A DNA stretch of 21,570 nucleotides from a virus. The stretch spans positions 1 to 21,570 of the IMG/VR virus record IMGVR_UViG_3300046005_001994; one strand, written 5' to 3'. The position numbers and the translations under genes were made by a program. The notes below the pieces were generated by a model. The model was given only the letters and a program-made list of their open reading frames with translations, made no database searches and had not been told where the DNA came from. Each line of letters opens with the position of its first letter. The first letter of the stretch is position 1. Below, piece after piece: positions 6,314 to 19,137 of this stretch.

Positions 6314-9109
6314 TTATACTACTGAACCTGTTATTTTTAATATTGGGAACCCCTTCATGTTAGTAGTTGATAATAATGCTATAGATGAAGTGTTTGCTGG
6401 GTTAGGTAATGCTGCTCCACCATCTGCAGTAACAGATAGTCCAATATAAGAGGCTACGGTAGTAGTAGATGGGATAATACCAAAATAATCACTCCATGCC
6501 GTAGCATTAGATGGGCCAAGTGCTTGAGTTGTGCTTCCTGAAGGAGATATTGCTAACCAATATATTTCTCCTTTTTTTAAAGTTGGTCTATTAATATCAG
6601 ATATTGCTATTTGTACAAATGCCTGGGATGTTGATATTTGACTTATTAATCCATAATCTGCTAATAATGTTCCAGGGAGTGCAGTAGATCCTTGTGCTAA
6701 TAGTACTGATGCTTCTGTGCTATTATATATTCCCAATCTATATGAACCTGTATTAGCAGCTAATGTACCTCTTACAAGTGCGCCTATAGAAGATATTAAT
6801 GTATCTCTTGATAATTGTATAGGATAATACCTTATATTTGCGGAAGTATCTGTAGTAGAGGATCCTGCTAAACTAATTATTGGAGTAGTTAATTTTGCAG
6901 GGATTATGTAGTTATTGGGCCACCCAGCTGATAGAGGTTTTCCTTCAAATTGAACTGATTGAGCTAAAGAAGCGGTTACAGCATAAGAAGCACTCACTAC
7001 ACTTCCTAATAGTGTTTGAGCAGTTAAAGCGTATGATGATGTAGTTGCAAAGCTTGAACTTAGTACATAAGAAGCGCTTACTGCATTTAAAACATAAGAT
7101 GCACTTTGTGCATTTTGGACGTATGATGCTGTTGTTGCAGTACCTTGTAGCGATCCAGAAAAGGATGTTGCGTTTAAGCTTCCAGTAATTGCATATGAAC
7201 CTGTTAATTGTTTTGAGTTAACCCAAACACTACCACTTCTAATAAGTAAGTCTCCAGATGATAGAGATCCAGTATTTATTGCAACATTGTGTAATTCATC
7301 TAACTCATACCCATTATCTACCTTAACAAAAATCTTACCTTGATTAATGTGAGCATATTCAACATACCCAACAATAACCATATGTTGGGGTGCTTGTGGT
7401 TTTATATTTGTAAGATGTCCTGGTGTGGTTGGGGACAGATATAATAGATCGCCATCTACCCATGTCTCTCCTTGCAGTGTGCCCGTTGTGTTTATATTTC
7501 GTACTTGACCTGAAAGGGTTATAAATCCTTCTTGATTGTTATCTATATTTTCAGTGACAACTCCTAAGGTAGTTGCTGAGTTGGCATCATTATTAGCTTG
7601 TGCTAACACTACTGCTAATCGCTGACCTTGAGCTCCTCCTTCAGCAACCGATCTAACGCGAACAACATAGTAATCAGCTTCCAATAGATTGGCTCCTGTT
7701 TTATTTACAACTCTAGCTACTTCTTCTTGTCCAATTTGTAGTGTAACATTACCTCCTTTTAATCCTATATCTAAAGTTCCATCAGTATCATTCCATTTTA
7801 ACCTACCAACTGCTCCTGCGTTTGATGCGGTTGTATCAAAATCAACATAGTCTACACCTGATATAAAGGATGAACCAGACATTAAGATTGATCCAGTTAT
7901 TATTTGATTACCTATAAATGTATTTGAGCCTGTAGTTGCAAATATAGTACTATCTTTTCCGTCTAGTAAATCTGCATTTAATGCATAAGAAGAGGTTGAT
8001 GAGTAAGAAGCACTTACTACACTTCCTAATAATGTTTGGGCAGTTAAAGCGTATGATGATGTAGTTGCAAATGAACTGCTTATTGCTTGCAATACATAAG
8101 ATGCACTTTGTGCATTTTGGACGTATGAAGCAGTTTGAGCATTTAATACGTAAGAAGCAGTAGTTGAAAAGGATGAACTTACGGCATTCAGTACATAGGA
8201 TGATGTTGTAGCATAAGATGATGTTCCTTGTAATGATCCGGTTATACCATTATTTACGATTAATTTATTATCAATTGTTACTCCTGAGCTTGATATTATT
8301 AATGTTGGGTTTCCATAATTAGCATTTGTGTAAATGTAAAGTGGTTTATTAATCTCTGTGCCTATGCTTGCTTCACCAGTATTATCTACAAAACCAGCTA
8401 ATACTGATTGAGTTGGATTATAAGTATCGTTGTATATTCCAAAAGCCCAGGGTTCAGCGTTAGCTCCATGTACTTGTAATATGGTGTTTATTCCTGATCC
8501 TGATATTATTTGGTTTCCTTTAAAGTTATTTGATCCGGTTGTTGCAAATGAACCTGTATCAATAGAAGAACCACCACCACCATTTAAAGCAAATGATGCT
8601 GTTATCGCATAGCTAGAAGTTCCAAGTAATGAACCTGTAAATCCTTGTGTTGATGTTACACTACCACTAAAAATAGCAGGTCCTATATTTGTAAAAGTAG
8701 AAGACCCGGAAACTGTAAATGAACCTGTAATTTGAATACTACTTGTTGTATTCCAAATATTTCCTCCAACATATGTAAATGGAGCAGATGAACCTGAAGG
8801 GCCTTGCGATCCTGAAGGACCTTGTGAACCTGATGGTCCTTGGGAACCTGAAAGACCTTGTGATCCTGAAGGACCTTGTGAACCGGAAGGCCCCTGTGAA
8901 CCGGAAGGACCTTGCGATCCTGAAGGTCCAGTGTTTCCTGTTGAACCTAATGGACCAGTTAATATCTGAACGACGCTAGTAATAGGTTGCTCAACACTAA
9001 CCGTTTTACAGCAATCATTATCTATTATCTTGATAGTATTATTAGTGTTTACTATCTTAACAGTATTATTATTCGGAATAATATTTATTGGTTTTGCACA
9101 ATCTGCCAT
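6314..9109 (-). CDS. Large fibre-like structural protein with collagen-like stem and S/A/Y repeats
   Basis: The 931-residue protein has a short N-terminal domain (1-51, with C4, C33 and C34), then 19 uninterrupted Gly-X-Y triplets (52-108, mostly GPS GSQ) as in trimeric phage collagen stems. Long stretches of S/T/A/Y-rich repeats follow (units like TASYVLNAQ, SSSFATTSSYALTAQTLLGS). They are interrupted by a beta-rich domain containing EEVARVVNKTGANLLEADYY, WVDGDLLYLS and APQHMVIVGYVEYAH. The C-terminal part (from about VQFEGKPLSAGWPNNY) looks like a separate beta domain. There is no signal peptide. The start ATG overlaps the stop of the upstream gene (TAATG), implying translational coupling. 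It probably forms a fibre or whisker on the head, neck or tail for host binding. Which structure it joins cannot be told from sequence. Confidence 0.8.
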   Translation of the reverse strand: MADCAKPINIIPNNNTVKIVNTNNTIKIIDNDCCKTVSVEQPITSVVQILTGPLGSTGNTGPSGSQGPSGSQGPSGSQGPSGSQGLSGSQGPSGSQGPSGSQGPSGSSAPFTYVGGNIWNTTSSIQITGSFTVSGSSTFTNIGPAIFSGSVTSTQGFTGSLLGTSSYAITASFALNGGGGSSIDTGSFATTGSNNFKGNQIISGSGINTILQVHGANAEPWAFGIYNDTYNPTQSVLAGFVDNTGEASIGTEINKPLYIYTNANYGNPTLIISSSGVTIDNKLIVNNGITGSLQGTSSYATTSSYVLNAVSSSFSTTASYVLNAQTASYVQNAQSASYVLQAISSSFATTSSYALTAQTLLGSVVSASYSSTSSYALNADLLDGKDSTIFATTGSNTFIGNQIITGSILMSGSSFISGVDYVDFDTTASNAGAVGRLKWNDTDGTLDIGLKGGNVTLQIGQEEVARVVNKTGANLLEADYYVVRVRSVAEGGAQGQRLAVVLAQANNDANSATTLGVVTENIDNNQEGFITLSGQVRNINTTGTLQGETWVDGDLLYLSPTTPGHLTNIKPQAPQHMVIVGYVEYAHINQGKIFVKVDNGYELDELHNVAINTGSLSSGDLLIRSGSVWVNSKQLTGSYAITGSLNATSFSGSLQGTATTASYVQNAQSASYVLNAVSASYVLSSSFATTSSYALTAQTLLGSVVSASYAVTASLAQSVQFEGKPLSAGWPNNYIIPAKLTTPIISLAGSSTTDTSANIRYYPIQLSRDTLISSIGALVRGTLAANTGSYRLGIYNSTEASVLLAQGSTALPGTLLADYGLISQISTSQAFVQIAISDINRPTLKKGEIYWLAISPSGSTTQALGPSNATAWSDYFGIIPSTTTVASYIGLSVTADGGAALPNPANTSSIALLSTTNMKGFPILKITGSVV
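6984..7050 (-). repeat. Long direct repeat within fibre gene, copy A (pair at 8004-8070)
   Basis: The 67-base segment matches 8004-8070 at 64 positions, exactly 1020 bases (340 codons) apart and in frame. Both encode the same LTAQTLLGSVVSASY-type segment. A second pair of 35 identical bases follows at 7092-7126 and 8094-8128. These exact matches could allow recombination that deletes the domain between them. Confidence 0.85.
8004..8070 (-). repeat. Long direct repeat within fibre gene, copy B
   Basis: Partner of 6984-7050, with 3 mismatches in 67 bases and the same reading frame. The two copies flank the beta-rich middle domain of the fibre protein. Confidence 0.85.
8786..8956 (-). repeat. 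18-bp tandem repeats encoding collagen-like GPSGSQ units
   Basis: The DNA is a degenerate 18-base tandem array (plus-strand unit like CCTGAAGGACCTTGTGAA) encoding the hexapeptide GPSGSQ. Third codon positions vary (ggt/gga, gat/gaa) while the protein is almost constant, with one GLS variant. Selection therefore acts on the triplet protein pattern rather than recent DNA duplication alone. Confidence 0.9.
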
Positions 9110-10319: not shown

Positions 10320-11960
10320 CTATAGAGTATTTAAACCTGAAATTTGGATTTTTGCATAAAATTCTGGACGAACCATTTTTTTAGCATATCTAGTCAATAG
10401 ACCTTTGTTAGGAGTAAATGTAGTTGGATCGTACACTAACGGAGTCATGATCAATGGAATGTATGGAGCAAAAACGGCACCTGTTTCCAAGAATTGTTGA
10501 CCTCTGTAACCCATCAATACAGTGTTTTCTGTCATGTATGGATTTTTGTATACTTGATATCTACCATTCAATTGACCCATTTTTTGTACACCAAATGCAT
10601 AAGTCATTTTTGAAGCTTCACCATCAGAAGTACTTGCAAAACCTGGGATTGATTCCAAGATAGTTGCTACTGTTGGAGAACAAACGATGAAATTTGCACC
10701 ACCTCTTAATGTTCTTTGGTGAATTGCGTTTGACAATTTTTGGATTTTTGTTCCCAATGTTTGGAACCATTGTCCTTGTGTGTTATAGAAACCTAAAGAT
10801 GGGTTGTTAGTTACAGTAGTACCACTTACACTTAAACTTTGGTTATTTACTGCTGACCAATATTCAGTACCTGCAGCTGCAGTTTCGATCAACATATCCA
10901 AAATTTCTAAGTCAATTTCTAAACTGATATATTCACTCATGATGCTAGTTAATTCTGCTTCAGCATCCAATGCATGGTATGCATTTAAATCTTGAGCAAA
11001 TTCCGGAGTCCATGCTGCTTTTAATTTTCTTGTTTTAGCAACAATCGCTTCAGATCTCATTTGAACGTTGATTTGAGGAATTGTAATTGAACTGTTATTT
11101 GCGTTCAAAGCAGTGTTAGCATCTTCAAAATCACCTCTGTATCTATCAGTTGGTTGTAATGAATATGAACAAGTAAATACAGAAGTTGTTGACCAAGGAA
11201 CCAATAATGAACCAGTAATAACAAAAGTTACAGTACTATTTGCTGTACTAAAATTAGTAAATGCTGGTAAGTTATCTGTTACTGTAATTGCACCTGTTCC
11301 AGAACCTGAAGTAAGTGTGAATGATCTAGCTGCTAAGAAATCAGCTACTGATCCTATACCTACAGTTACAGTTTTCCAAGAACCTGCTGCTGCTGAAGCT
11401 GAATAATCACTATCTAAACCGAAAGTAGCCCAAGTAGCTGAACCAGTAGTTGTAACTTGGAATGATGAAGTGTTGTTAATTGAGTAACCAAATCTACCAG
11501 CGCCATATAAACCACCAGCATTTGTGTTACCGAAGTTAGAACCAGTATCACCATACATTGATTTACCTGCTGTAAATGGATTTTTAGATGTACCATATTG
11601 GAAATCTAAGAAAAACACTAGACCTGAAGGTAAGTTCATTGGTTGAACACTAACGAATTCTTTTGATGCAATTTGACCGAAGATCTTACGAACTAACGGA
11701 AGGGCTACACCTGCCCATTGTTCACCAACACCTGCTGTAAAAGTAGCTGTTGAAGAAGTACCACCTCCTGTTTGAGAGGCTTCAATTACCAATTGTTTTG
11801 CTTGGTTTTCAAGGATCATAGACATATTGTTTTTCTCGGTTTCATTTTTGATACCTTCTAACAATCCTGTTCTACCCCATTTGTTTGCTAATCTAGCCGC
11901 GTCACCTTGTAGTGATTTATACGGGTTAGCTGATTCGAGTAAGTTTTGAATGTTTGCCAT
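10320..11960 (-). CDS. gp23: Major capsid protein, T4 gp23-like
   Basis: This 546-residue HK97-fold capsid protein (T4 gp23 is 521) is clear from several blocks. FVSVQPMNLPSGLVFFLDFQ YG at about 103-124 matches T4 VQPMNSPTGQVFALRAVYG. The segment from EAIVAKTRKLKAAWTPEFAQ on through DLNAYHALDAEAEL matches T4 SRQLKAAYSIELAQDLRAVHGMDADAEL. FIVCSPTVATILESIPGF and YQVYKNPYMTENTVLMGYRG are also present. The first ~60 residues resemble the propeptide that gp21 removes in T4 (FLTE|AEIGG there; LVIE60|A61 here, followed by a TGGGT arm). The ATG is at 11958-11960 behind a long CAAA-rich leader without Shine-Dalgarno. It follows the scaffold gene by 37 bp and ends in a strong terminator. Confidence 0.96.
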   Translation of the reverse strand: MANIQNLLESANPYKSLQGDAARLANKWGRTGLLEGIKNETEKNNMSMILENQAKQLVIEASQTGGGTSSTATFTAGVGEQWAGVALPLVRKIFGQIASKEFVSVQPMNLPSGLVFFLDFQYGTSKNPFTAGKSMYGDTGSNFGNTNAGGLYGAGRFGYSINNTSSFQVTTTGSATWATFGLDSDYSASAAAGSWKTVTVGIGSVADFLAARSFTLTSGSGTGAITVTDNLPAFTNFSTANSTVTFVITGSLLVPWSTTSVFTCSYSLQPTDRYRGDFEDANTALNANNSSITIPQINVQMRSEAIVAKTRKLKAAWTPEFAQDLNAYHALDAEAELTSIMSEYISLEIDLEILDMLIETAAAGTEYWSAVNNQSLSVSGTTVTNNPSLGFYNTQGQWFQTLGTKIQKLSNAIHQRTLRGGANFIVCSPTVATILESIPGFASTSDGEASKMTYAFGVQKMGQLNGRYQVYKNPYMTENTVLMGYRGQQFLETGAVFAPYIPLIMTPLVYDPTTFTPNKGLLTRYAKKMVRPEFYAKIQISGLNTL

Positions 11961-11997: not shown

Positions 11998-13113
11998 TTA
12001 AATAATACCTGCTAATTTTTGGAACCTTGCTATCATATCATTAGATTCAATAATAGGTTGTTTTGTTTGAGGAACAGTTATTGACTTGGAAGCTCTACCT
12101 AAATTTTCTTGAATGTTTCTTGTTGGTGTTTTTAAGTTACTTAACAATGATTCATATACAAGTTTAGCTTCTTTTGTTGTTGTTGCTCTATCAAAAGCAC
12201 CTAATACATTAATCTTTTGAGATTCAGTTAAGCTCTTACCTCTGAAGATTTTGTTAGTGTAAAGTAGTTTTGCGTTTAGTAAGTTAACTTCGTTAATGTC
12301 TTTTTTCATTGATCTAATAACGCTGTATGCTTCTTCTAATTCTTTGCTTGATTTTAATTTTGCAGCTTTTGATGCTTTACTTTCTTTTAGGTCTTTACAC
12401 AGTTCATTTTTTGGAAATCTGTTGCACACCAAAGATAAAATTTCTTCATCCGTTAATTTAAGAGCGTCCTCAGTTGATATTGGATGCTCGAATTGACCAT
12501 ATTCTTTAAGATCATCACCTTCCATTTCGTTTAAGAACTCATCAATACTTTCACCTTCTTCTTCTTCTTCTTCTTCGGATTCTTCTTCGTGACCAGCTTC
12601 AATTTCTCCAGCTTCAACCATGTCTTTAATTACGCTTTCAATGAAATCTTTTAAATCTCCTTCAGACATGTCTTCAATACTCATTTCTTCCTCAGTTTCT
12701 TCTTCGGCTTCCATTAAAGCATCATCTGACATTCCTCCAGAAGCTATATTACCGTGAGCTTCAAAACGTTTAGGATTATTAACTTCTTCTTCCATTTCGT
12801 CTTTTTCTAATTCAGACATGAGTTCTTCTAGATTAATTTCGTCTTCGTCTTCATCTAAATAGAATTCTTTAACAACCTTTTCATTTTCTCCACCTCTTTT
12901 TTTGGCTTCGTTTTGCTCTATGTTTTCGTCATTGTAATCCATATCTTCATCCATATCTTCCTCTTCCATCTCGTTGATTTTAGCGGAGAACATAGATTTT
13001 AAATGTGGAGTAAATGCTTCTTCAAGAGCCATTTTTGCGTTTGCAATTGCTGTGTCTTTTACTGCTTTAGCGTCAGCGATCGCTTCTTTTAATAAATCTC
13101 TGTTTGTTGACAT
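11998..13113 (-). CDS. gp22: Prohead core scaffolding protein, T4 gp22-like
   Basis: This 371-residue, extremely acidic protein sits directly before the major capsid gene, as gp22 does in T4 (269 residues there). Residues 47-200 are dominated by E and D (for example EEESEEEEEEEGES at 176-189, encoded by a GAA-rich tract). The C-terminal third is helical and basic, with the gp22-type KLLYTNKIF...SLTESQKINVLGAFDRA block at about 282-310. Potential gp21 cleavage motifs (L/I-x-E) recur: LKE at 8-10, LKE at 242-244 and IIE at 354-356; T4 gp22 is likewise cut to small peptides. The ATG is at 13111-13113. Its leader TTTAAGGAAA holds the only plausible Shine-Dalgarno (AAGGA) among the main structural genes. 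Capsid gp23 follows 37 bp later. Confidence 0.87.
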   Translation of the reverse strand: MSTNRDLLKEAIADAKAVKDTAIANAKMALEEAFTPHLKSMFSAKINEMEEEDMDEDMDYNDENIEQNEAKKRGGENEKVVKEFYLDEDEDEINLEELMSELEKDEMEEEVNNPKRFEAHGNIASGGMSDDALMEAEEETEEEMSIEDMSEGDLKDFIESVIKDMVEAGEIEAGHEEESEEEEEEEGESIDEFLNEMEGDDLKEYGQFEHPISTEDALKLTDEEILSLVCNRFPKNELCKDLKESKASKAAKLKSSKELEEAYSVIRSMKKDINEVNLLNAKLLYTNKIFRGKSLTESQKINVLGAFDRATTTKEAKLVYESLLSNLKTPTRNIQENLGRASKSITVPQTKQPIIESNDMIARFQKLAGII

Positions 13114-13312: not shown

Positions 13313-13933
13313 TTAAATTATTGGGCAAGTGCCGTGAGCGCATAATATTTCAAAAAGAATAGAATTTACTTTAGAATACTTATTTGTTTTAGTTGATTGT
13401 AAACCTTCGTTCATCATTCCATTTATTGGGTGCATCCAGCTACCTGGATTAGAAGGAGTAGATACAAAATCCCAACACGTTAATGTAAAATCATCTTGTA
13501 CTTCCATTAAGTCACCTTCTTGTTTTAAACTACCCATACCTCTTGAAGATACTCCTACTGAGATATTACTTTCTATAAGTGCTTTAAGGATATTACCTGA
13601 TGGGGTAGGTAGAATTTCGATTTTACCTATAATATTATCTCCGTCCCACCAAATATCTTTGATAGCATGGGATACGTTTTTTAGATTGATAACTTCAGTA
13701 CTAGGATGGTCTAATTCTCCAGTTGCACGATTTTCCTTAATGCTCTGCATGTATGTTTCTAATTCCCTTTCCCATAATTCTCTCTTGTAGTATCTTCCGT
13801 TTCCGTTTTTTACTTCCACTGTAGCTAAAATGCCTTCTACTAATGGGTTTCCTGAAGATCCTTTAGTTCCTTCAACAAGCTGCATTGGATTAACTTGGAA
13901 TGGTCTAGTTTCTATTAGAAGTTGTTTATTCAT
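13313..13933 (-). CDS. gp21: Prohead core protease, T4 gp21-like
   Basis: This 206-residue serine protease (T4 gp21 is 212) processes capsid and core proteins inside the prohead. The assemblin-like catalytic elements are visible: GELDHPST with His76, and SVGVSSRGMGSL with Ser129 or Ser130 as nucleophile. The preceding NGNGRYYKRELWERELETY block (43-61) is also typical. Candidate self-cleavage motifs occur near the N-terminus (LIE at 6-8, LVE at 19-21). The C-terminus is unusual in carrying two cysteines (ILCAHGTCPII). The ATG is at 13931-13933, one base after the stop of the 491-residue gene (TAAAATG), so translation is coupled. The order portal, core genes, protease, scaffold, capsid matches T4. 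A terminator follows. Confidence 0.9.
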   Translation of the reverse strand: MNKQLLIETRPFQVNPMQLVEGTKGSSGNPLVEGILATVEVKNGNGRYYKRELWERELETYMQSIKENRATGELDHPSTEVINLKNVSHAIKDIWWDGDNIIGKIEILPTPSGNILKALIESNISVGVSSRGMGSLKQEGDLMEVQDDFTLTCWDFVSTPSNPGSWMHPINGMMNEGLQSTKTNKYSKVNSILFEILCAHGTCPII

Positions 13934-13934
13934 T

Positions 13935-15410
13935 TTATTTAATTTTCTTAAGTCTTCTAAGAATAGATTCTACTATTTTATCAACTACTGATTCTTTTAA
14001 TTGTCTGTCTTTTGGAGCCATTGAATTGTAGATTTTTTTACCTTCATCTCCCATTTTACTTACTAAATCCATAATTTCCTTTTCGGATCTTTTACCGGGT
14101 GCGTATTTTTTACTGTCGTCACTCATTTCAAAATACCAATCATGTTTTGATAATAGATTTTTCAATGAATCTTTATTTGCTGATTCTTTTAATTGTCTGT
14201 CTTTTGGGGCCATTGAGTTGTAAATTTCTTTACCTTTAGCTCCCATTCTATTTACTAAATCCATAACTTTCTTTTCAGATGCTTGACCGTCTTTGTATTT
14301 ATTATTATCGTCACTCATTTCAAAATACCAGTCATGTCTTGATATTAAGTCTTTTAATATATCTTCGTTAGATTCTTGATTTTCTTCTAACTTTCTACTA
14401 CTTATAATTTTATCAACAGCATTCTTAGTTCCTCCAAAACCTTTTACACCTTTACCACTTAATATGTATCTTAATTCTTCATCGGATATTTCAGGATCAT
14501 TAATTTGCTTATTATATCTCATTCGTAAAATGTTTTCAGATCTACCATCTGTCTCTTTATTCAACTCTTCAGGTGATCGTTCTAAAGGTGTTATGTCAGG
14601 ATTTGATAAAGGTCTTGATAATATATCTCTATCATAAATACCTTCTTTTAATTCCATTTTAATTGTTTTTGGTTTACCTGGAGTGGTCATTTTTTGTACA
14701 CCTTTAGAAGATTGAGCTTTCATATCCATTTCTTTTACTTTCTTAGGCATACCCGTTTTGTATTCACTTTTACCTGAATCTTTAACGTTTGATTTTGGAG
14801 CTGTTTGTTTATTATCTAAATCACCATACCCACTAGACTTATATTTACCTTTTGCTTCTTTAGGCTTACCTAAACCTGGAGCATCTTCAGTATATCCCAC
14901 TCCTTCTGTTCCAAATTGGCCGTTTTTAATGTAGTATAACGGGTCTTTAGATATGTTTTTAGTGACGATGTCCATTAATTGATCCTTCGTTTTATCTGCG
15001 TTTTTAGGCGCTTTTAATTCGGTATAAAATCCATTAAGTACTTCTTGACCACTTAAGTTATCGATATTTTTACGATTTTTGTTATCAAAACTATGAGCAT
15101 CAGTATCTTCTACATATTTGGATACTTTTTTAGTATCAGCTTTAACTTTTTCTTCTTCCATTTCAGATAAGAAATTTTTAAATGCTATTTCATAGTCTTG
15201 TTTTGGAGATGGTTCCCAATCGTTAATGGGTCGTAATCCAACAAAATTCTCGTTAATTACCCCTCTATTTTTAAGGATTTTTTCGGTTTGTTCAAAATCA
15301 GAAAAATTAGTTATCATATCCGGATAAAGCGATTTTGCTTCCTTTAAAAATATATGTTTACTTCCTTTTCCTTCTTTAATAAGATTATATTGTGTTTGTA
15401 AAGTTTTCAT
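13935..15410 (-). CDS. Putative prohead core or internal head protein with duplicated C-terminal domain
   Basis: This 491-residue hydrophilic, lysine-rich protein is not a family I can name. The N-terminal ~90 residues are helical; residues about 170-260 are low-complexity and probably disordered. A tandem pair of 57-residue domains occupies 354-410 and 418-474; both copies contain HDWYFEMSDD, a K/R-rich linker, a helical MDLVxxMG segment and the identical YNSMAPKDRQLKES. It contains many sites of the gp21 type (L/I-x-E followed by a small residue): IKE at 11-13, LKE at 22-24, an LKE|G in the middle, LKE|S after each repeat and IVE|S near the end. Together with its place just before the protease gene, where T4 has core genes 67/68, this suggests a protein packed in the prohead core and cut during maturation. 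The ATG is at 15408-15410, with leader AATAAACA. Confidence 0.75.
   Translation of the reverse strand: MKTLQTQYNLIKEGKGSKHIFLKEAKSLYPDMITNFSDFEQTEKILKNRGVINENFVGLRPINDWEPSPKQDYEIAFKNFLSEMEEEKVKADTKKVSKYVEDTDAHSFDNKNRKNIDNLSGQEVLNGFYTELKAPKNADKTKDQLMDIVTKNISKDPLYYIKNGQFGTEGVGYTEDAPGLGKPKEAKGKYKSSGYGDLDNKQTAPKSNVKDSGKSEYKTGMPKKVKEMDMKAQSSKGVQKMTTPGKPKTIKMELKEGIYDRDILSRPLSNPDITPLERSPEELNKETDGRSENILRMRYNKQINDPEISDEELRYILSGKGVKGFGGTKNAVDKIISSRKLEENQESNEDILKDLISRHDWYFEMSDDNNKYKDGQASEKKVMDLVNRMGAKGKEIYNSMAPKDRQLKESANKDSLKNLLSKHDWYFEMSDDSKKYAPGKRSEKEIMDLVSKMGDEGKKIYNSMAPKDRQLKESVVDKIVESILRRLKKIK
13989..14159 (-). repeat. Intragenic tandem domain repeat, unit 2
   Basis: It encodes residues 418-474 of the 491-residue core-type protein. 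It is a diverged copy of 14181-14351, offset by 192 bases (64 codons), with long near-identical ends and a variable centre. Confidence 0.85.
14181..14351 (-). repeat. Intragenic tandem domain repeat, unit 1
   Basis: It encodes residues 354-410 and is the partner of 13989-14159. The ends (HDWYFEMSDD and YNSMAPKDRQLKES) are conserved at the protein level, while the middle differs. Confidence 0.85.
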
Positions 15411-15423
15411 TGTTTATTTAAAA

Positions 15424-15702
15424 TTATGAATATAAAAATACGGGAGCACTATTTGCTGCTAAACTACAAGAAGTTATGACCATTGGGAATGTAGTTCCAG
15501 GAGCCATTGTAAACGATACACCTGTTGCTTCTGTAATTGTATTGTTAGTAAAAGAAGAACCATATTTAATACCTGAAATAATTGAGCCTGTTATTCCGGT
15601 TCCTGATCCTATTCCTAAACATATCATTCCTGAAAATGCTCCAGTAATTGATTGACTGGCTGTTAAAAATGTTCCTCCTAAATTTACTGGGATATTTACC
15701 AT
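15424..15702 (-). CDS. Small Gly/Ser/Thr-rich beta protein, possible capsid decoration protein
   Basis: This 92-residue ORF has little charge: MVNIPVNLGGTFLTASQSIT at the start, GAFSGMICLGIGSGTGITGS in the middle, and VSFTMAPGTTFPMVITSCSL near the end, finishing PVFLYS. The alternating hydrophobic and small residues suggest a compact beta sandwich. It has no signal peptide, no long helix and only two cysteines (C27 and C78). The start is ATG at 15700-15702, 7 bases after the stop of the 79-residue gene, with an A-rich leader AAAAATAAAAACA. The family is not recognised. A beta fold with short exposed loops inside a head-gene cluster is compatible with a decoration or fibre-knob type protein, but that is only suggested by composition and context. 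Confidence 0.65.
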   Translation of the reverse strand: MVNIPVNLGGTFLTASQSITGAFSGMICLGIGSGTGITGSIISGIKYGSSFTNNTITEATGVSFTMAPGTTFPMVITSCSLAANSAPVFLYS

Positions 15703-15953: not shown

Positions 15954-16364
15954 TTATTTGTATGTTTTTCCCCATAAATCTTTATAATCTACAGCTTTAG
16001 AAGCATCAGCTTGTTTTTTACGATTAACTACTTTGTAACCGAACGCCTTTACATAATAATTATCTTCTACTCCATGTTCTGTTGCTTTTGGACCAGGTCC
16101 TAAATTTCCAGTTCCATATGTAGATTTATTGGTTTCAGTTACTTGATTTGGTGCTAATTTATATCCTAATTTATAGTAATAATTACTAGCTGTACCTTTA
16201 GCTTTTTTATTTGAATTAAAGGCAAATGGTGTAGCATATTGTTCTCCAGTACCTGTAGTCATTCCAGCACTACTAGCTGTTCCACCACCTGTTGTAGATT
16301 CTTCTTTTAATTTTTTAAGATATTCTTGACATATCTTTTTGATTTTGACTTTTAAATTATCCAT
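15954..16364 (-). CDS. Small head-type protein sharing the capsid protein's cleavage-site/N-arm motif
   Basis: The first 21 residues of this 136-residue protein form a basic helix ending LKKLKE. The next 23 residues align without gaps to the major capsid protein from its predicted cleavage glutamate: E21-A44 here and E60-A83 in gp23 share 15 of 24 residues, including TGGGT and GEQ. The rest is a Tyr/Lys/Gly-rich tail (SNYYYKLGYKLAPNQ, DNYYVKAFGYKVVNRKK). A short helix ending in L-x-E recalls the capsid-targeting peptides that gp21 removes from T4 internal head proteins. I infer a minor capsid or internal head protein. The ATG at 16362-16364 overlaps the upstream stop by 8 bases (ATGGATAA), so translation is coupled. 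Confidence 0.75.
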   Translation of the reverse strand: MDNLKVKIKKICQEYLKKLKEESTTGGGTASSAGMTTGTGEQYATPFAFNSNKKAKGTASNYYYKLGYKLAPNQVTETNKSTYGTGNLGPGPKATEHGVEDNYYVKAFGYKVVNRKKQADASKAVDYKDLWGKTYK

Positions 16365-17205
16365 TAGTATGTTTTAATTCTTCTAAAAGCTCAAAATATT
16401 GAAGTAAATCAACCAAATTGTTTGTTTTAACTTTTTGATTTTTGTCAATCTCAGTCAATAGTTTACCTACTTCCTCTAGTTTAATTTTAACAACAACATC
16501 TTCTGTTTTGGTGATTTGAGTTTTTATTTCTGATTTGATTTCGTTTATCTTATCATTGTAAAATCTCATTAGTTTTGGGGCTGAGTCTATTGAATTAATA
16601 AATTCTTTTAATACTGTTTTTTGGTTTTCATTTAAATGAGCGTGTTTAGTATTAAATTTATCAAGTAAAATCTTATAAGTTAAAATACGTAAATCTTTAT
16701 CATATGTTTGAAATTCCTCAATAATTGTTTGGGTGTGTTCTTTTTCTCTTTTAGGTTTTGTTAAATATTCTAAAAGTGTAGTTTTATTATTTATAGTAAT
16801 CTGTGGATTTGAATATGTTGGATCACTATGTACTTCAAATAAAACATATATAGATGCTAATTCTTTGTAGTTTGAAACTTTAGTTTTAAAAAATTCGTCT
16901 AGGTTATAATGGTCTTTTATTTCCTTGATTAAATTGTATTTTTGTTTTCTTAAAGATGTACGATTTAATTTTTTAGAAGATTCTAATACCGTGTTTATAA
17001 CCATATTAGCTTTAGCTTCGCTAACAAAGTTATTTTTAAAAATAGACTCATATAACTTGTATTCTTTTCCTAATTCAGTATTAACAAAATGAGATTTAAT
17101 TATTTTTGATGCAGGCGAATCTTTACCTGATAAAATATCTGAAGTGATTTGTCTTGTTAATAATTCAAATAGTATACCTGTATTTTTTGTCCTATTATGT
17201 TTCAT
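16357..17205 (-). CDS. Conserved-looking helical protein of unknown function downstream of portal
   Basis: This 282-residue protein begins MKHNRTKNTGILFELLTRQI and is charged and almost wholly helical (for example YKLYESIFKNNFVSEAKANM, LVDLLQYFELLEELKHTNG at the end). It has no signal peptide or membrane segment. A TTG codon lies directly before the ATG (17206-17208), but I prefer the ATG at 17203-17205. The gene lies between the portal and the small core genes, has an ATATTTATAA motif upstream, and overlaps the next start by 8 bases. I recall similar 'NTGILFELL' proteins next to portals of other marine T4-like phages, without known function. It may belong to the prohead core or portal assembly; this is inferred from context alone. 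Confidence 0.75.
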   Translation of the reverse strand: MKHNRTKNTGILFELLTRQITSDILSGKDSPASKIIKSHFVNTELGKEYKLYESIFKNNFVSEAKANMVINTVLESSKKLNRTSLRKQKYNLIKEIKDHYNLDEFFKTKVSNYKELASIYVLFEVHSDPTYSNPQITINNKTTLLEYLTKPKREKEHTQTIIEEFQTYDKDLRILTYKILLDKFNTKHAHLNENQKTVLKEFINSIDSAPKLMRFYNDKINEIKSEIKTQITKTEDVVVKIKLEEVGKLLTEIDKNQKVKTNNLVDLLQYFELLEELKHTNG

Positions 17206-17216
17206 CAATGTATTTT

Positions 17217-17235: not shown

Positions 17236-19137
17236 TTAGTCTCGTAACTGGGAAGCGTCTAGTAATGACTCTTTATTTTTATCTGATTCGAAAATCATTA
17301 CTTTACGTTCTACTTTCATATTCTCTAATAATTTTTTATTTTGAAAATATGATTTTTTAGATCCTTCTAGCGCTAGAGGTGAACCACCTTTATAATTGGT
17401 TTTACCGAATGATGGTTGATCATCTTTTTTCATAGCAGCAACCCCTAATCTATCTCTACCAAAAGCATTACCCTGAGTATTTATATCTGAGGCCTTTTCC
17501 TCAGGGCGTCCTAAAGTAGCTTTCTCATTGTACCCAGCAGGAACATCAGATGTATTATCATATCTTCCAGTACCATATAATGTTGCTAAATCGTGAGGTG
17601 TACCATATGATTTACCTGTTTCTAATGGATCATTTCCTTCCTCTGATATTTGTTTTAGTCTGAATCTACGTTTTGCGTCTTCCACATTTAAATCTCTCAT
17701 TTCACCAAATTCACTTTCACTTAAATGGAATACGTTAGTGTAAACCCAATCAGATGGTAAAACATCATTTTCAAAAATAGTTACAGCTAAATCTACTTTT
17801 TCTTTTAAAAGAGATAAACGTTCTTGATCGTATATAATTGAAGGAGTAGTAAGAGATAATTTAAAATTAGTTAATTGTTCACCATCATATCCCTGTGTAT
17901 ATAAATGGATTAAAGCAATTTTTTCAAGTTCGGATAATATTATTCTCTGTATTCTATCAATTGTACGAGCAAATCTAATATCTTCAGCTGCTAGTGTGGC
18001 TTTTCCAGTTAAATCTTTTTCATAACCCATAAAAGCTTTTGGAACTTTTAAGGCAGCAAACATTTTATCTCTTAAATACTCAACATCCTTAATACCATCA
18101 TACTCTAAACCTTTTGAAGTATCAATTTTAGTAGTTGCATCATTTCCACGAACTGGAATGTAGAAATCTTCCATCATATTCTGCATGTTGTACTTCAAAT
18201 TATACTCTCCAGTTTCAGGATCAATATATGGAGTACGTTTCATGGCAGAAATTGTTTTCTGCATAAATGTTTCTACTTCATTAGGTGGAATGCCTCCAAT
18301 ATTAATGTAAAATACCCGTTTTTCCGGCGCTCTAACTATTCTATGGATAAGCATGCTATCTTCCATTAAAGAGTATTGTTTATATAATTTACGCGCTGGT
18401 TCAATATATGCTCTTCCGTAAGGTAAATAATTTACATCTGATAACAACCTAAAGTGGGCCATTTCATAATTATCAAAATAAATTCGATTTGAATTAGTAG
18501 GTTGATTTGGTAAGTTATAATAACCATAACTGCCTCCAGCAAAACCATCAGGTGAAAATGCATACCTTATAGATGCAGGACTTGCTTTATCATATCCTTC
18601 TTGTCTTTCAATATGATATGCAGTGTATGGAATAATATTATATACTCCAAATTTATCAGCTATTTCTAGTTTTAGGAAAAAGTCACCATATTTACACATT
18701 TGTCTTACCCATGACCACATATTAAATTCTATATTTAATACATCATAAAATAAGTTATATAATATTTTCTGAACGTCTTCATCACTACTTACAATTTGTA
18801 ATACTTCTCCTTGTTCATTTTTTAATGTACTTTCATCTGCAATAATATCTAGAGCAGAGGCTATAATAGCATCAGTATCCATAACATCATATTCAGAATA
18901 CATTTGTGTTCTTAAATATTGATAATTAAGATTGAATTGAGCTCCATATAAAGATGATGGGTTTGTGCTGCTATATATTCGATTAAATCTATCTTGGAGT
19001 GAATTAGTTTCAATTTCTCCAGTAGTTTGGATGTGATTAACATCTATTACACGAACGTTATTTCCTCCTTGGTTCCTAATGATTACATCCGAAGAAAATA
19101 ACCTCTTTAATCTTGTAAATACACTTTTATCTGCCAT
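17236..19137 (-). CDS. gp20: Portal protein, T4 gp20-like
   Basis: The 633-residue product is a T4-type portal (T4 gp20 is 524), the dodecameric ring at the packaging vertex on which the prohead starts and through which DNA enters. Clear gp20 blocks are RTQMYSEYDVMDTDAIIASA with LDIIADEST (about 76-105), the MWSWVRQMCKYGDFFLKLEI segment (about 139-158), PYGRAYIEPARKLYKQYSLM and EDSMLIHRIVRAPEKRVFYI (about 236-275), and APKAFMGYE-like VPKAFMGYEKDLTGKATLA. The C-terminal ~110 residues are hydrophilic and longer than in T4, with DDQPSFGKTNYKGGS. The ATG is at 19135-19137, with leader AAATAAACAAAA and 11 bases from the terminase stop. No promoter motif separates them, so it is co-transcribed with terL. 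Confidence 0.94.
   Translation of the reverse strand: MADKSVFTRLKRLFSSDVIIRNQGGNNVRVIDVNHIQTTGEIETNSLQDRFNRIYSSTNPSSLYGAQFNLNYQYLRTQMYSEYDVMDTDAIIASALDIIADESTLKNEQGEVLQIVSSDEDVQKILYNLFYDVLNIEFNMWSWVRQMCKYGDFFLKLEIADKFGVYNIIPYTAYHIERQEGYDKASPASIRYAFSPDGFAGGSYGYYNLPNQPTNSNRIYFDNYEMAHFRLLSDVNYLPYGRAYIEPARKLYKQYSLMEDSMLIHRIVRAPEKRVFYINIGGIPPNEVETFMQKTISAMKRTPYIDPETGEYNLKYNMQNMMEDFYIPVRGNDATTKIDTSKGLEYDGIKDVEYLRDKMFAALKVPKAFMGYEKDLTGKATLAAEDIRFARTIDRIQRIILSELEKIALIHLYTQGYDGEQLTNFKLSLTTPSIIYDQERLSLLKEKVDLAVTIFENDVLPSDWVYTNVFHLSESEFGEMRDLNVEDAKRRFRLKQISEEGNDPLETGKSYGTPHDLATLYGTGRYDNTSDVPAGYNEKATLGRPEEKASDINTQGNAFGRDRLGVAAMKKDDQPSFGKTNYKGGSPLALEGSKKSYFQNKKLLENMKVERKVMIFESDKNKESLLDASQLRD

Follow-up and report, generated by a model that had tools for sequence, protein, structure and literature searches.

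The window, the whole 21,570-nucleotide stretch of DNA analysed here, belongs to a marine T4-like phage. Its head genes follow a T4-like order of terminase, portal, a 283-aa protein, a 136-aa small protein, a 92-aa protein, a 491-aa protein, gp21-type protease, gp22-like scaffold and gp23 (Table 1). The ORF of the small protein runs from 16364 to 15954 on the minus strand, where the plus strand is full of stops, and its product has no Pfam or PHROG match at E up to 1; nothing usable came from searching Pfam, PHROG and PDB with the protein and with its family. In T4 the gene order is 20-67-68-21, the genes for gp67 and gp68 lying between genes 20 and 21 as the small protein's gene lies here. 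Membership of the gp67/gp68 family was considered and rejected on the lack of a Pfam or PHROG match at E up to 1. A gp23 paralogue or gp24 vertex protein was likewise rejected, because the Gp23 (HK97-fold) domain is missing from the 136 residues, PF07068 being found on the capsid protein only. No separate gp24 was found, since each of the long records (4/4) holds a single Gp23-family protein. Elsewhere in the window, at 6314-9109 between phoH and the neck genes, lies a 931-aa protein with collagen-like GPSGSQ repeats and ASYVxNAxSASY-like stretches.

Table 1. Head-cluster genes of the window and the parts of the small protein and gp23
Feature	Position	Strand	Basis or remark
gp23 major capsid protein	10320..11960	minus	546 aa; PF07068 E 1.2e-77
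gp23 arm, residues 61-83, at the place of the T4 N-fist	11712..11780	minus	phmmer alignment to T4 gp23*
gp23 leader, residues 1-60, ends VIE60	11781..11960	minus	helix 40-62 in low-confidence model
gp22-like scaffold	11998..13113	minus	position and acidic composition; no family match
gp21-type prohead protease, presumed processing enzyme	13313..13933	minus	Peptidase_S77 E 3.1e-29; phrog_207
491-aa head-cluster protein, function unassigned	13935..15410	minus	synteny
92-aa protein	15424..15702	minus	seen mainly in nearer relatives
Small head-cluster protein	15954..16364	minus	ORF, ATG start, 136 aa; family by tblastn and HMM
Lys-rich stretch and small C-terminal part, residues 45-136, varies among phages	15957..16232	minus	alignment, AF2
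YATPFAF, residues 43-49, family hallmark kept in both arm classes	16218..16238	minus	alignment
gp23-like arm ESTTGGGTASSAGMTTGTGEQYA, residues 22-44 of small protein	16233..16301	minus	predicted disordered on its own
Leader of small protein, residues 1-21, ends LKE21, putative prohead-protease cut after E21	16302..16364	minus	AF2 helix
283-aa protein, function unassigned	16357..17208	minus	adjoins small protein in inspected relatives (synteny)
gp20 portal	17236..19137	minus	Portal_T4 E 1.7e-64

The arm shared with gp23

Residues 21-44 of the small protein (EESTTGGGTASSAGMTTGTGEQYA) align without gaps to residues 60-83 of gp23 (EASQTGGGTSSTATFTAGVGEQWA) with 15 of 24 identities, an alignment that the first-pass annotation had pointed out and that our comparison confirmed. 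The glutamates opening the two segments also stand as described there, E21 being aligned to E60, with L-K before it in the small protein (LKE21) and V-I before its counterpart in gp23 (VIE60). The arm match is far above chance: in 200,000 shuffles of both segments the best pair reached 13 identities, and none of 2,000 whole-protein shuffles (highest 70) reached the local score of 78 between the small protein and gp23, which compares with 25-45 between the small protein and the 18 other window proteins used. Because [LIV]xE triplets are frequent in these proteins, the site alone is little proof; what counts is its fixed place before a conserved arm. The site is called protease-like with reference to the T4 gp21 consensus.

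According to the structural accounts cited, a 65-residue leader is removed from T4 gp23 by cleavage, and residues 66-91 form the N-fist, which touches four subunits and shifts from the inside to the outside on expansion (PMC9958956, PMC7136217); it is ordered through inter-capsomer contacts and disordered where it faces the portal (PMC7136217). Residues 68-133 of the window gp23 are aligned by phmmer to residues 12-75 of mature T4 gp23*, which places the window arm at the N-fist, and this arm probably folds as the N-fist does. The small-protein arm is alike in place and sequence to the N-fist region of gp23 in one of the two arm classes described below, class A, only. Usually, the arms by which capsid subunits are locked together belong to the capsid protein itself. 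The feature in common with T4 gp23* is a segment some 25 residues long that gp21 cleavage uncovers, to which the window gp23 aligns (PMC7136217, PMC9958956); what differs is that here a second, otherwise unrelated small protein bears such a stretch.

The arm is restricted to these two proteins. A profile of eight small-protein N-termini, with gp23 excluded, was run on the 1,931 ORFs of at least 40 codons in two long contigs and found the small protein (E 1e-29 and 5e-24) and gp23 (E 1e-8 and 7e-6), the next match standing at 0.16. In 11 further long records a similar profile found the small protein in 11 of 11, gp23 in eight of 11 (recognised by frame length, and by place where checked) and nothing else at E up to 1, so that over the 13 long records together the family profile finds only the small protein and, in 10, gp23. 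The proposal that the element could be used to find further packaged proteins was accordingly not borne out in the long records searched.

Leader, putative cut site and two arm classes in the family

The family is unnamed and is situated by the portal and prohead-protease genes in many uncultured T4-like phages. With the window protein as query, 14 loci were found in contigs of uncultured viruses; an alignment of N-termini used as query brought up 154 relatives (80 of 154 kept), two further scans gave 507 and 434 (80 kept from each), and a scan starting from gp23 gave 599 loci (80 of 599 kept). Gene order around the small protein is conserved in the inspected loci. Two cultured phages were found to carry members, Flavobacterium phage immuto (gp072) and Microcystis phage Mel-JY01 (WWT39308.1), each labelled hypothetical. 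Searched by tblastn against phage records, the window protein itself had no match at E up to 1; the two cultured relatives came to light only by way of gp23 and of remoter members of the family. Around gp23 of Rhodothermus phage RM378 we recognised no arm protein. Two neighbouring annotations in the cultured phages deserve mention: immuto KNV73_gp067 (L107:8225-9466) is annotated 'DNA polymerase phi-like protein', and its place and acidic composition suggest a gp22-like scaffold; Mel-JY01 WWT39311.1 (L108:6688-6915), inside the head cluster between the protease and capsid genes, is annotated ribosomal protein S21.

Family members share a plan of a leader of about 10 to more than 200 residues, [LIV]xE, a Gly-rich arm, (Y)xTPxAF and a variable Lys-rich body, Y43, T45, P46, A48 and F49 each being present in at least 90% of 38 alignment rows. 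As scripted, [LIVM]xE directly precedes the arm in 90 of 93 distinct relatives (background 2.4% per position), a figure to be read knowing that the set had been preselected for [LIVMTFK]x[ED] at the site; one of the three exceptions, L088, actually has LSE and was misplaced by the script. In a set found by HMM and free of the site filter, Glu stands at the site in every distinct row, as judged by eye. The AF2 models are poor, with mean pLDDT 58 for the small protein and 47 for gp23. For the small protein they predict a helix at residues 2-22 (block pLDDT 78 and 74), in agreement with the helical leader proposed at first pass, draw the arm at 23-50 as disordered (block pLDDT near 42) and assign moderate confidence to the C-terminal third (block pLDDT 65-77 from residue 91; pTM 0.25).

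Several relatives vary the plan. In L174 (4040-4588) a single ORF joins the small protein in frame to MYKYKLSKKLNE-ADPARINF, which adds another leader-like peptide with an LxE; other loci encode this second part as an ORF of its own beginning MYKYKLxE. One clade (L049:9608-10705, L072:7829-8728, L096:627-1481) has an N-terminal region of about 130 residues replacing the short leader, with the same site and arm. In L065:3675-4040 (DYLDE then MQVATPHAF) and L071:3967-4323 (DFLDE then MHYGTPHAF) the hallmark is repeated in shortened form behind a second site, as though a single precursor were divided into two units.

Two arm classes are found. In class A the arm is long and gp23-like (for example STTGGGASFTPGSGEQYATPFAF). 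The short arm of class B, STSGGAGAYLTPYAF, resembles that of class A minus about eight middle residues and is without the gp23-like stretch. Of the 51 loci from the gp23-first scan at which all neighbours were present, class A accounts for 17 and class B for 32, two fitting neither; immuto and Mel-JY01, the sole cultured relatives found, are both class B. Gp072 of the former (vB_FspM_immuto_2-6A; YP_010114611.1, hypothetical) has the gene place of the small protein and is 71% identical to the class A relative L103, and differs in its short arm STTGAVGGYLTKNAF, from which the GxGEQ part is missing; its putative cut would follow LEE16. Mapped on a tree of gp23 bodies from 77 phages, arm class must have changed at least eight times on the best tree, and well-supported branches force at least six of these changes. 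Arm class is also associated with the type of gp23 arm (Fisher p 3e-6, distinct pairs), a comparison in which ancestry is uncontrolled and which is not relied on. Many class B phages have a longer arm form in gp23 itself, with SQTxVNxGGQW replacing GxGEQW (L128-L138). Conservation in relatives, which the first-pass annotation set against general low complexity, thus holds in part: the arm is kept across relatives and is more than mere low complexity, while its gp23-like portion is absent from 32 of the 51 loci, so that the family in general can do without it.

Correlated change of the two arms

The small-protein and gp23 arms resemble each other more within than between phages, a relation that is new here and holds over 85 distinct pairs. 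Pairs from single phages include SLSGGGVAGGTF and SLSGGGVAGGSF (L155), SATNQGGASF and SATNQGGGTF (L181), STTGTGASFTPGSGEQ and SSTGTGAFFTPGQGEQ (L014), and ANVTGGGASFTPGEGEQ and ANVTGAGGSFSAGEGEQ (L325). For 57 class A pairs the mean score was higher with a phage's own partner than with the partners of other phages, whichever clustering level was applied; among 20 representatives below 70% gp23-body identity the means were 63.2 and 46.6 (p 5e-5, the minimum of the test), and the own partner had a mean rank of 2.8 of 20. Since relatives are not independent, path-disjoint pairs were compared on the gp23-body tree. With 43 phages the contrasts were 9.1 positive and 4.0 negative (sign p 0.27, Wilcoxon 0.015); this being only partly significant, more loci were gathered and the test was repeated. 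Merging of identical arm pairs reduced 114 paired loci to 85 distinct pairs, L107 being dropped for its short arm. On a FastTree tree, unsupported branches included, these gave about 33 phylogenetically independent contrasts, 20.0 positive and 7.3 negative, with p values over random pairings of median 0.019 and maximum 0.25 (sign test), median 0.0029 and maximum 0.089 (Wilcoxon) and median 0.0006 and maximum 0.017 (sign-flip). When the letters of the small-protein arm were shuffled, the mean contrast D fell from 8.67 to 0.71 (sd 1.27, maximum 4.28; 0 of 300 as high). The functional element that had been proposed from the shared arm gains by this result, the two arms not only being alike but changing together within phages.

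The effect is modest, with a mean arm identity of 0.58 within phages vs 0.49 between them, and a single-site test of correlated change on the tree met too few independent changes. The modest effect and the low complexity of the arms are what could be said for a chance likeness of two Gly/Ser/Thr-rich linkers, whose correlation would reflect phage-wide composition and shared ancestry. That explanation is largely refuted already by the shuffled control and is very improbable in view of the segment, whole-protein and arm-letter shuffles taken together with the independent contrasts over 85 pairs and the specificity of the profile. Recent gene conversion was also rejected: in 41 representatives the same codon is used at 271 of 552 identical arm residues, below the 306.5 expected from codon usage, which indicates that the likeness is kept at the protein level.

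Correlation along the arm bears on a further explanation, in which the arm is an extended primed-side recognition site for the gp21 protease and the small protein merely a gp21 substrate. Such a site would account for arms that start right after [LIV]xE in both proteins and for first six arm residues that follow the partner (p 0.019), and a primed-side preference, with Ser at P1', is described for the SPN3US protease in the part of the source relevant here (PMC10052503). We nevertheless consider it improbable: other likely gp21 substrates in the same genomes are without the arm, and the explanation is weakened by class B, in which the site is retained though the middle of the arm is gone, and by the last six arm residues, which track the partner as well (10 positive, 4 negative, p 0.034) and lie far from the cut.

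Proposed docking in the shell and other possible roles

The small protein has partial counterparts among known head proteins. T4 IPI-III have a short N-terminal leader and a presumed gp21 cut, features that small head-cluster proteins in some relatives may have in common, and differ in that no capsid-like arm is mentioned for them in the passages cited (PMC3012670, PMC9958956). T4 gp67 and gp68 are described as prohead core proteins processed by gp21 (PMC9958956, in its account of the core) and differ in being degraded to small peptides in T4. From the SPN3US head proteins gp45 and gp225 the prohead protease removes leaders of 20 and 24 residues; there the protease motif is AxE, and the cited passages mention no capsid-protein arm on either (PMC10052503).

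Another view is that the small protein is an internal or prohead-core protein in the manner of a T4 IP or gp68, its leader targeting the core, gp21 trimming it, and its arm binding a partner common with gp23 (scaffold or protease) and not the N-fist site. The gene lies between portal and protease, the leader ranges from about 10 to more than 200 residues and the body is Lys-rich. An M-x-YKYKL-type N-terminus, comparable to the shared T4 internal-protein targeting sequence as that source describes it (PMC3012670), occurs on both the arm protein and a second ORF in 11 of 318 loci, and no near relative of the window is among these. By itself, however, a core role predicts neither the correlated change along the whole arm, to its last six residues, nor the restriction to gp23 and the small protein among all ORFs. 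We judge it rather unlikely, and a common assembly partner of both arms remains a serious rival.

The tendency of the arms to change together across phages suggests that the small protein plugs into the shell as the capsid protein does. The reading we favour, which we regard as quite plausible without calling it probable, is that a small structural head protein is cut by gp21 and that in class A phages its mature arm docks in the N-fist-like site of gp23. The cleavable leader may help to bring the small protein into the prohead core, by analogy with the T4 targeting sequence, and gp21 would cut after LKE21. The freed arm, residues 22-44, would then copy the N-fist-like arm of mature gp23 and, in class A, compete for or fill the N-fist-type site between gp23 subunits, so anchoring the small Lys-rich body to the shell and presumably making the protein part of the virion. 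The likeliest docking places would be near the portal or the vertices, wherever a gp23 arm is absent or not in use. In class B the small protein would likewise be processed, and attached in some other way. The frequency of class B (32/51) counts against docking as a strict rule, and the modest effect size and weaker tests (sign p up to 0.25) were also counted against docking, as were the class B arms of both cultured relatives and the poor AF2 models.

It is possible, if doubtful, that docking of this kind amounts to mimicry of the phage's own capsid throughout a widespread T4-like group, the two arms being kept matched by selection and the small protein filling arm sites left free by gp23 in the surroundings of portal and vertex, with the trait gained or lost several times. 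Titles and abstracts in the open-access library searched listed no report of an arm-copying head protein, and searches of that library turned up nothing on Mel-JY01 and no immuto virion data.

If the docking reading is true, it would show one way in which minor head proteins are recruited, by imitation of the lock that the shell itself uses. This would help to annotate a family that is 'hypothetical' in the two cultured phages found and that, as represented in the window, has no Pfam or PHROG match; the arm would also serve as a natural tag, 20 residues long, for coupling cargo to T4-like capsids. For phages never brought into culture, the correlated change of the arms offers a way to approach a capsid interface from sequence only.
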